From Candidatus Sulfotelmatobacter sp. (GTDB lineage: Bacteria > Acidobacteriota > Terriglobia > Terriglobales > Acidobacteriaceae), in contig JASHQK010000481.1 of the NCBI GenBank assembly GCA_030039195.1, positions 1 through 37,108 on the forward strand: 37,108 bases of DNA, in the 5' to 3' direction. Position 1 is the first letter of the stretch, and every line of letters begins with the position of its first letter. Positions 19,477 through 22,083 of this stretch are shown one piece after another. Position numbers and translations under genes: made by a program. Under the pieces are notes generated by a model. That model saw only the letters and a list, made by a program, of their open reading frames with translations, was not told where the DNA came from and searched no databases.

Positions 19477-19751
19477 TTGTCCTCCAGTGCCCCTCCGGCT
19501 CGGCCGGATAGAGCCTGTACAGCGCGTCGTGGGCGCTTCACGTCATTGGATGACGCTTGGCATATTATAGCCGCAAATCGGGCGCGAGTCGATACCACCG
19601 GAATGGGGTTAGGGCATTGAAGGAAAAGATGTTCCTCGCCGAGACAACCAGCGGGAGGCGAAACATTTATTGCCAGTGCGACTATTTTGTCGAGGCCGCT
19701 AGGGTCGTCAAATTCGCCCATCTGTTCCACTTTGGAATCTGCGATTGGAAA

Positions 19752-19769
19752 ATGTGTTCCGGAACACAT
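19752..19769. promoter_or_regulatory. 18-bp perfect palindrome ATGTGTTCCGGAACACAT, candidate operator upstream of the tRNA-like gene
   Basis: Read directly; 33 nt upstream of the tRNA-like 5' end; regulator unknown. Confidence 0.45.
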
Positions 19770-19802
19770 CTGGGAGCGATTTCAGGACCGTAATCTGATT
19801 TG

Positions 19803-19875
19803 GGGTCCGTGGTGTAATTGGCAGCATATCAGCCTGTCATGCTCGAAGGTGCGGCTTCGAATCCCGTCGGGTCCA
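19803..19875 (+). tRNA. tRNA-Asp(GTC)-like gene; no encoded CCA; one C.C mismatch in the anticodon stem and one at the 53-61 T-stem pair
   Basis: Hand fold: acceptor GGGTCCG/CGGGTCC (7/7 with two G-U), D-arm GTGT-AATTGGCA-GCAT, anticodon arm TCAGC-CTGTCAT-GCTCG (anticodon GTC), variable AAGGT, T-arm GCGGC-TTCGAAT-CCCGT. Confidence 0.7.
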
Positions 19876-19907
19876 CAGCATTCCCTGGTTCGGTAGGGAA
19901 TCTGAAA

Positions 19908-19933
19908 GAGGAGCCTCGACAGGCGGGCTCCTC
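19908..19933. repeat. Perfect stem-loop GAGGAGCC-N10-GGCTCCTC downstream of the tRNA-like gene
   Basis: 8-bp inverted repeat read directly. Confidence 0.65.
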
Positions 19934-19977
19934 AAGTAACCTTGACTTCTGGTTCTTATTCTGCCGATAATCAACTT

Positions 19978-20002
19978 GAGCATGACAGGCTGATGTGCTA
20001 CC
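19978..20002. repeat. 25-nt inverted copy of the tRNA D-loop/anticodon arm region
   Basis: gagcatgacaggctgatgtgctacc is the reverse complement of 19820-19844 except one mismatch and one position that would be a G-U pair in RNA; 17 nt contiguous perfect. Confidence 0.85.
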
Positions 20003-20036
20003 CCGAGCGGAAGACGCGCTCGGGGTTTCGCTTTTT
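20000..20036 (+). terminator. Rho-independent terminator-like hairpin ACCCCGAGCG-GAAGACG-CGCTCGGGGT + TTTCGCTTTTTC
   Basis: 10-bp stem, 7-nt loop, T-rich tail. Confidence 0.75.
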
Positions 20037-20301
20037 CTTGCCAATCCTGATGCACGCACAAAACTAGCCCGTGCTTTCGCCTGGGACGAGGCCTTGCTCT
20101 CGCGCAACCCGCTCGAGTTTTGTCTTTTCTCTCGCTCGAATTGCGGAGACTGGATTGCCGCATTCAACGCACGGAACCTTTTTCGCCCGCATCATTCACG
20201 AGGTTCGTTGCTATGTACATACAATAACATACATAAGCGTTCCTTAAGGAACACTGTGGAAAACTATCCGCGTGGAATGTAAGTGGCTTGTTTTCAAATG
20301 G

Positions 20302-22083
20302 CTAACTCTTGCCCCGCACCTTCGCCCAGGTATCCTTCAGCGCCACTGTGCGGTTGAACACGGGCGTTCCAGGCTTCGAGTCAGGATCGACGCAGAAGTA
20401 TCCCAGGCGCTCGAACTGGTACCGGCTGCCTGCGGCCACGTTGGCCAGCGACGGCTCCAGCTTCGCGTGCTGAATCACCTCCAGCGAGTTCGGACTCAGA
20501 TTCTCGGTGAAGTCGTGGCCTTCCGGAACGTCCGTGGGGTCAGGCTTGCTGAACAAGTTTTCGTAGATGCGCACTTCAGCGTCGATCGCATGCGCAGCCG
20601 ACACCCAATGGATCGTCGACTTCACCTTGCGTCCATCAGGCGCGTTGCCGCCGCGAGTGGCGGGATCGTACGTGCAGTGCACCTCGACGACTTCTCCCTT
20701 CTCATTCTTCACGACGCTCTTCGCCGTAATGAAATATCCATAGCGCAGGCGCACTTCTTTCCCAGGCGACAGGCGAAAATATTTTGGCGGAGGCACTTCG
20801 CGGAAATCGTCCTGCTCAATGTAAAGTTCACGTGAAAAAGGAACTTTCCGCGAGCCTGCGCTTGAGTCTTCCGGATTGTTCTGCGCGTCCATCTCCTCGA
20901 CTTGATTCTCGGGATAGTTGTCGATCACCACTCTCAGCGGGCGCAGCACGGCCATCATGCGCGGCGCGCGCTTGTTCAGGTCTTCGCGGACGAAGTGCTC
21001 CAGCATCGCGAGATCAACGATTCCATTGGTGCGTGACACGCCGACAGCAGCCACGAAATTGCGAATCGCGTCGGGCGTGTAGCCTCGGCGCCGCAGGCCG
21101 CCCAGCGTAGGCATGCGCGGGTCGTCCCACCCGCGAACCGTGCCGTCCTCAACCATGCGGCGCAGCAGGCGCTTCGACATGACGGTGTAGGTCAGGCTGA
21201 GACGGTCGAATTCAATCTGCTGCGAAGGAAAGATCCCAAGCTGCTCGATGAACCAGTTGTAGAGCGGCTGATGATCCGCGAATTCGAGCGAGCACATCGA
21301 GTGCGTGATTTTTTCGATCGAATCCGACTGGCCATGCGCGAAGTCGTACATGGGATAGATCGGCCACTTGTTGCCGGTGCGGTGATGCTCGGCGTGCAGG
21401 ATGCGGTACATCACCGGATCGCGCATGTTGAGGTTGGGCGAAGCCATGTCGATCTTCGCCCGCAGAACCCGCGATCCGTCAGGGAATTCGCCGGCGCGCA
21501 TGCGCTCAAATAAATTCAGATTCTCTTCCACGGACCGATTGCGATACGGGCTGTCTTTGCCCGGTTCGGTCAGCGTGCCGCGATGCTTGCGAATTTCTTC
21601 CGCGGAAAGATCATCGACGTAGGCCTTGCCGTCTTTGATCAGCTTGATCGCCCACTGGTAGATCTGTTCGAAATAATCGGAGGCGTAGAAAAGCCCGTCC
21701 CAGTGGAAGCCGAGCCACACGACGTCCTGCTTGATCGATTCGACGTACTCGACATCTTCTTTCTCAGGATTCGTGTCGTCGAAGCGCAGGTTGGTCTTCC
21801 CGCCGAACTCTTCGGCGAGACCGAAATCGATGCAGATCGCTTTGGCATGACCGATATGCAGATAGCCATTCGGCTCAGGTGGAAAGCGGGTCTGCACACG
21901 TCCGTTGTACTTGTTGCTCTTGAGGTCTTCGAGAATCTTGTCGCGGAGAAAATTCGACGGGCGCGACTCCGGAGTCGAATTCGCGTCCGTTTCCGCTTCT
22001 GCCGTTGAGGGAGTCATGACTTCGATGTTACCGCAAAGAAGGTCCGAAATCCGCTGTTCAAGGTGTTGAAGTTCGCCAACCAT
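20302..22083 (-). CDS. glnS: Glutaminyl-tRNA synthetase (start 22083 or 22017)
   Basis: [98 protein letters not shown] (KMSKS-equivalent MSKR). Confidence 0.96.

Follow-up and report, generated by a model that had tools for sequence, protein, structure and literature searches.

A conserved RNA module of 234 nt is encoded on the forward strand at positions 19803–20036 of a 37,108-nt stretch of DNA from Candidatus Sulfotelmatobacter sp. (hereafter, the window), which carries one copy of it. In our opinion, the module probably comprises two RNAs that obey the logic of a toxin and its antitoxin, i.e., a tRNA-like RNA that would be costly when free and a dedicated antisense RNA that would neutralize it; we favor this reading while retaining considerable doubt. 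The tRNA-like structure (TLS) is perhaps a mistranslating tRNA. The computed basis of this reading consists of the parts of the module, their conservation and co-variation, the promoter geometry, the acceptor identity set, and an asymmetry in loss.

Organization of the locus

The TLS (19803–19875; anticodon GUC, no encoded CCA), recognized by ARAGORN, by Rfam, and as a conserved family, is preceded by TAATCT (19791–19796), the −10 box of a putative promoter P1, located 6 nt 5′ of the first TLS base, G1. Downstream lie hairpin A (19876–19904), which folds around ATTCCC...GGGAAT and is present in most family members, and hairpin B (19908–19933), the GAGGAGCC/GGCTCCTC stem of which has co-varying pairs. 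The hairpin B loop, GACAGGC (19918–19924), is the complement of the TLS anticodon loop. A second putative promoter, P2 (19942–19971), matches the consensus with TTGACT (19942–19947) as the −35 box and GATAAT (19966–19971) as the −10 box, and stands directly 5′ of the antisense segment (19978–20002). This segment is the complement of TLS positions 19820–19844 and the predicted 5′ part of an RNA of ~58 nt transcribed from P2. An intrinsic terminator (20000–20036), present family-wide, would end the antisense RNA as well as any TLS read-through; no terminator separates the TLS from the antisense in the window copy. All of these features are on the forward strand. An earlier note on this DNA had described the tRNA fold, a hairpin, the antisense segment, and the terminator, each of which was found where it had been placed; P2, the −10 box before G1, and the anticodon-loop complement in hairpin B had been overlooked.

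Read directly, 19978–20002 pairs with 19820–19844 through 23 Watson-Crick pairs and one G-U, with one mismatch and 17 contiguous pairs, exactly as the note had counted. The complementarity score of the window TLS and antisense is 22.6, compared with a maximum of 18.6 among 2000 shuffles. Folding of the 234 nt, a check that the note had proposed, gives −113 kcal/mol vs −79.5 kcal/mol for shuffles (z −7.5); the stability, far greater than that of shuffles, comes from pairing between the antisense segment and the tRNA part.

Co-variation of the tRNA-like RNA and its antisense

Conservation of the antisense segment in relatives had been named beforehand as an observation whose absence would refute the proposal; the segment is kept, and it co-varies with the TLS. 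Among 71 distinct copies, 17 of 17 anticodon-arm/antisense pairs have changed on both sides. In the same copies, 89.5% of cells are paired in the true register vs 32–40% in slid registers, and the covariation score is 0.606 vs 0.222 for shuffled and 0.07–0.13 for slid alignments, where the relatedness of copies remains in the shuffles and is kept by the slid control too. Complementarity averages 15.55 in cis vs 7.51 in trans, the maximum over 20,000 permutations being 9.31. The guide diverges freely along with the TLS, so that 52 distinct arms occur among the 71 copies, and at one and the same panB-glnS locus, the orthologues of the window, L124, L130, L143, and L154 differ on both the TLS and the antisense sides. 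None of the 26 genuine tRNAs checked has a comparable antisense (maximum score 11.1). Two adjacent predicted RNAs with dedicated, co-evolving complementarity, as found here, are one of the features expected of an RNA-RNA toxin-antitoxin pair.

Identity and structure of the TLS

ARAGORN and Rfam call a tRNA at 19803–19875/6 with anticodon GTC, at only 47.1 bits; Rfam release 15 gave no match above gathering score other than tRNA, and permissive thresholds likewise yielded tRNA alone. The note had termed the gene tRNA-Asp-like, a name that holds for the anticodon and fails for the identity: the anticodon was the sole basis of the label, and the TLS is not a tRNA-Asp. The genuine tRNA-Asp of the window genome (G000) lies elsewhere (L004), and the TLS is identical to it at 49 of 73 positions. 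A CCA is encoded in 26 of 26 genuine tRNAs checked and is absent from the TLS. G73 is an established AspRS determinant. It is present in the genuine tRNA-Asp of G000, and the discriminator is A73 in 76 of 80 parsed TLS copies.

The acceptor of the window TLS is of the alanine type. G3.U70 is found in 75 of the 80 parsed copies, and G1-C72 and G2-C71 are likewise kept in nearly all; together with A73, these form the alanine set (PMC9976931), which is also present in the genuine tRNA-Ala of G000. Acceptor pairs 4-69, 5-68, 6-67, and 7-66 vary with compensation (L164, L165, L168) while the alanine set stays. It should be noted that the contig pattern search required CGGGTCCA; for G3.U70 we therefore rely mainly on the BLAST and covariance-model matches, in which this sequence was not imposed. 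The anticodons of 72 copies are GUC (49), GCG (10), GCC (8), GCA (2), AUC (2), and GCU (1), and never an alanine anticodon. By its acceptor identity set, the TLS is thus of the alanine-accepting type, with charging predicted from sequence. The exception is L172 (genome G492), which lacks the alanine set (G73, G3-C70) and has A20 and anticodon GCU. This arginine-type body (A20, G73) is followed by P2 and an antisense, so control of this kind may not be confined to alanine-type bodies.

The TLS folds into a complete cloverleaf with the tertiary bases retained, a 7-bp acceptor, and a 5-bp T stem, shortened in L165 alone. In the window TLS, C53 and C61 are mismatched in the T stem, so this copy may be weakened. 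In many copies, the anticodon stem contains a 3′-side bulge or a mismatch; U33 is present in 51/71, a purine at position 37 in 51/71, and both in 32/71. These variable positions, together with the anticodon-stem defects, make ribosomal misreading uncertain and decoding doubtful for many copies. Should the TLS decode at all, an alanine-charged form with such anticodons would misread.

Other alanine-type tRNA-likes occur in the genus. L269, L271, and L276 (genomes G012, G016, and G004) are related genes with GGGCCTG/CAGGTCC and A73; CCA is encoded in G012 and G016. In these genes, an extended hairpin, sealed by a 4-nt loop and showing compensatory changes, takes the place of the anticodon arm, and no antisense was found downstream in the two checked. 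They are possibly non-decoding alanine carriers. The window's own genome also has a 102-nt tRNA-like with G3.U70 and A73 (L266; G000:C147:4628-4729), in which the anticodon region is long and irregular; it lacks an antisense.

Promoters and hairpins

At P1, the motif TANNNT (consensus TARRCT) lies 5–9 nt before G1 in 52/72 copies vs 0–6/72 at other upstream anchors, a spacing at which G1 would apparently be the transcription start of the TLS. Just 5′ of P1, the window has a perfect, operator-like 18-bp palindrome, ATGTGTTCCGGAACACAT (19752–19769), which is absent from one relative compared by eye; in several relatives, TGTGA is found ~50 nt before G1.

P2, with a TTGAC-type −35 box and a GATAAT-type −10 box spaced mostly by 17 nt, is present in nearly all of 73 copies. 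In about half of the copies, the antisense starts 5–6 nt past the −10 box; in nearly all, the distance is 1–9 nt. Since this geometry places the +1 position at the antisense start, the antisense is most likely a separate small RNA, the product of a predicted gene, rather than mainly a processed trailer. The note's proposal of a co-transcribed, processed trailer consequently loses its main part to P2, while its fold-back survives as a possibility for read-through transcripts. Apart from its guide and the terminator, the antisense RNA contains very little. Its predicted duplex with the TLS has −57 kcal/mol vs −24.6 kcal/mol for the TLS alone.

The hairpin B loop matches the anticodon loop with a cis run of 6.06 vs 4.49 in trans (permutation maximum 4.99); this loop-restricted score is clear, whereas hairpins A and B scored jointly against the whole anticodon arm give only a marginal result. 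L168 and L172 retain P2 and the antisense and have no hairpin B counterpart, so the core looks like TLS, P2, and antisense.

Distribution and genomic context

BLAST of 19600–20302 against 100 relatives delineated, in many congeners, a conserved block bounded by G1 and the terminator, outside which the sequences have diverged. When named genomes were scanned with a pattern, 34 places matched; a single one lay outside Acidobacteriota, and most were in Candidatus Sulfotelmatobacter and other Terriglobia metagenome-assembled genomes (MAGs). With a covariance model composed of the TLS, hairpins A and B, and the P2 −35 box, and a family cut of at least 65 bits (other tRNAs scored at most ~61 in the order scan), the module was found in 31/45 genomes of the window's genus, with up to 5 copies each, while 14/45 show no TLS. 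The model also finds it in other genera of the same family, and rarer copies occur in other families of class Terriglobia (L163–L166, L168, L172). L169 looks like a degenerate copy. Class-level matches near 64–70 bits (e.g., L167, L170, L171, L173–L187) look like ordinary tRNAs and were set aside. When the whole phylum was sampled with a strict threshold, matches came solely from the window genome and a single congener, and plasmid, phage, and viral collections contained no match to the module. All copies come from draft genomes, mostly MAGs, and the E-values of the models are rough.

The copies adjoin housekeeping genes, not plasmid or phage settings. The neighbors include panB/glnS, gltX, alcohol dehydrogenase, thiolase, pcrA, mqnC, urocanase, and lepA, among others, and no gene that might encode a protein partner is common to all.

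Asymmetric loss of the two RNAs

Every TLS with perfect acceptor, D, and T stems has an antisense partner (52/52), and a TLS-only model that does not require the antisense revealed no further intact TLS in 45 genomes. Conversely, an antisense next to a lost or broken TLS was found at at least 15 loci, a rough count because window-derived queries were used for antisense-only loci. The antisense stands alone at L050, L052, L229, L233, L235, and L236, beside a broken TLS at L043, L148, L150, L151, L152, and L213, and as a tandem second copy at L047 and L063/L143; the second guides of these tandems fit no TLS copy found in the respective genome. In the 96% complete genome G025, each of the three loci found (L273–L275) has the TLS destroyed and P2, antisense, and terminator kept. 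At L151 and L152, similar inserts, AGGTCC(C/T)TCGC...GCTCAGGATTTCG..., break up the TLS at one shared position in the T arm, and the antisense remains.

Copies without an antisense are themselves broken (L049, L040, L214), with the exception of the Dehalococcoidia outlier L061. This locus, from a MAG, has an alanine-type acceptor, a canonical anticodon arm, and anticodon GCG; no antisense was found on either side within about 1.5 kb. That the antisense outlives the TLS is what a harmful RNA and its antidote would leave behind; in an RNA-RNA toxin-antitoxin pair, the antitoxin can stand alone and the toxin cannot, as is seen here within the limits of the rough counts. Mutations have a somewhat larger target in the TLS than in the antisense, and part of the asymmetry could stem from this; differing target sizes are compatible with the pattern, although they fit it less well.

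Proposed mechanism

We infer that both RNAs are transcribed, that they form a duplex in cells, and that the TLS is charged and carries a cost. P1 would produce a tRNA-like RNA starting at G1, with a tRNA-folded body and the full alanine acceptor set, and with an anticodon that would read Asp codons here and those of Arg, Gly, and Cys in relatives. P2, a strong and constitutive-looking promoter, would supply a steady ~58-nt antisense RNA, which would pair along 12–24 nt with the anticodon loop and the 5′ anticodon stem, take apart the anticodon arm, and so disable the TLS. The simplest guess about the cost of free TLS is that, charged with alanine, it would misread other codons; the antisense would be its antitoxin. 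Several observations count against this reading, i.e., the variable decoding features, the lack of an encoded CCA, the exception L172, and the location of the copies next to housekeeping genes instead of on plasmids or phages. A read-through TLS transcript carries the antisense and hairpin B and so would start folded shut: hairpin B and the 3′ antisense copy would pair in cis and could hold the precursor inert until 3′ processing, which is needed anyway because no CCA is encoded. Slow 3′ processing would release active TLS once the antisense RNA runs out. A more specific version is a tRNA-based toxin-antitoxin system in which an alanine-charged tRNA with a foreign anticodon would misincorporate alanine at Asp, Arg, Gly, or Cys codons and would be silenced by a co-evolving antisense that occludes the anticodon arm; each genome would then harbor several such pairs, orthogonal to one another. 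This version is in our opinion conceivable and only tentatively proposed.

Alternative explanations

The TLS might instead be a useful carrier of alanine, i.e., an alanylated non-ribosomal RNA serving cell-wall, lipid, or signaling reactions, with the antisense as an ordinary regulator or anticodon shield and no toxin involved. The conservation of the alanine set while decoding features vary speaks for such a carrier, as do the alanine-type tRNA-likes of the same genus with sealed anticodon arms, no antisense, and, in two genomes (L269, L271), an encoded CCA. We nevertheless regard it as rather unlikely: the neighborhoods of the copies share no protein partner gene, 14 of 45 congeners show no TLS, and the order of loss is that expected of a harmful, not a useful, TLS. 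An improbable variant makes the 234-nt read-through the main product, a single self-folding RNA with processing as its switch and P2 minor. It would accommodate the very stable fold, the lack of a terminator between TLS and antisense, and the mimicry of the antisense by hairpin B, but P2 is near consensus, with its +1 on the antisense start in most copies, and antisense genes with P2 persist where there is no TLS.

Those antisense-only loci could also suggest that the antisense regulates mRNAs in trans and that the TLS is its decoy. E. coli has known tRNA-derived sponges as a precedent. Its 3′ETS-leuZ, which the note had cited, is a trailer serving as a sponge for unrelated sRNAs, and is not close to the present module because the antisense partner here is the tRNA-like part itself. 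Moreover, the free divergence of the guide is unlike that of a seed held by mRNAs, and an RNA with little beyond guide and terminator does not fit a trans regulator well, which leaves the sponge slightly less credible than the self-folding RNA. Reversed roles, with the antisense as an attacker of genuine tRNAs and the TLS as its antidote, might be suggested by the partial resemblance of GUC loops to the tRNA-Asp loop. Yet the window antisense scores 9.3 or less against genuine tRNAs, no better than background, compared with 22.6 against its own TLS, and it persists without a TLS; we give this reading almost no credence. Hardly any remains, either, for the debris of a second tRNA that the note had considered, or for a passive mobile repeat, i.e., a tRNA fragment inverted by recombination. 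Several loci per genome with varied flanks would suit such a repeat, but conservation and co-variation of the antisense segment, the promoter geometry, and the conserved panB-glnS locus already refute it. The pair of a costly TLS and its antisense antidote remains our preferred reading.

Relation to known systems and significance

In type I pairs such as hok/sok and tisB/istR, a constitutive antitoxin RNA is transcribed antisense from its own promoter, the precursor is folded and inert, and the target is a peptide mRNA. The module described here resembles them in the own-promoter antisense and the inert folded precursor predicted for it; the target here is a tRNA-like RNA. The tRNA-like domain of tmRNA is charged with alanine via G3.U and A73; the TLS shares these determinants and, unlike tmRNA, has a complete anticodon arm. 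ARAGORN called no tmRNA in the window.

Allo-tRNAs, whose hosts include Acidobacteria, have anticodons mismatched to the charged amino acid (Mukai et al. 2017, reviewed in PMC7609411). GCG and GUC anticodons are frequent among them, some have the G3:U70 alanine pair, and some are suspected of toxin-antitoxin or transposon links (PMC7609411). The TLS is like them in its irregularity, its odd combination of identity and anticodon, its GCG and GUC anticodons, the G3:U70 pair, and occurrence in Acidobacteria; however, its acceptor domain is 7/5 rather than the 8/4 or 9/3 of allo-tRNAs, and that review mentions no antisense RNA. The tRNA-Other of Bacillus cereus is analogously a tRNA-like part of a longer, regulatory-looking RNA without use in translation, but it has a Trp anticodon, is confined to the B. 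cereus group, and, in the consulted part of the source, has no dedicated co-varying antisense reported (PMC3399842). CreTA/type VIII pairs likewise combine a small RNA toxin acting on translation with an adjacent RNA antitoxin; CreA represses creT via a CRISPR effector (PMC8501985), whereas the present module relies on direct RNA-RNA complementarity, i.e., plain antisense. Most of the genes that immediately flank the sampled loci have housekeeping functions, and no cas gene adjoins the copies examined. Thus, allo-tRNAs, tRNA-Other, CreTA, and type I pairs are analogues rather than families that contain the module.

To our knowledge, no tRNA or tRNA-like gene of bacteria has been described that has its own dedicated antisense RNA. 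A literature search, which did not reach the original allo-tRNA paper, found no antisense-paired bacterial tRNA or tRNA-like, and the sources consulted contain no description of such a two-RNA control pair. Owing to the three-way co-variation, the pairing can be tested directly, and the orthogonal natural pairs are a ready set of antisense switches for tRNA. If our reading is true, antisense-RNA control would extend to tRNA-type molecules, the odd tRNAs of soil bacteria in which identity and anticodon disagree would gain a testable reason for their existence, and regulated mistranslation would be a possible new toxin principle.
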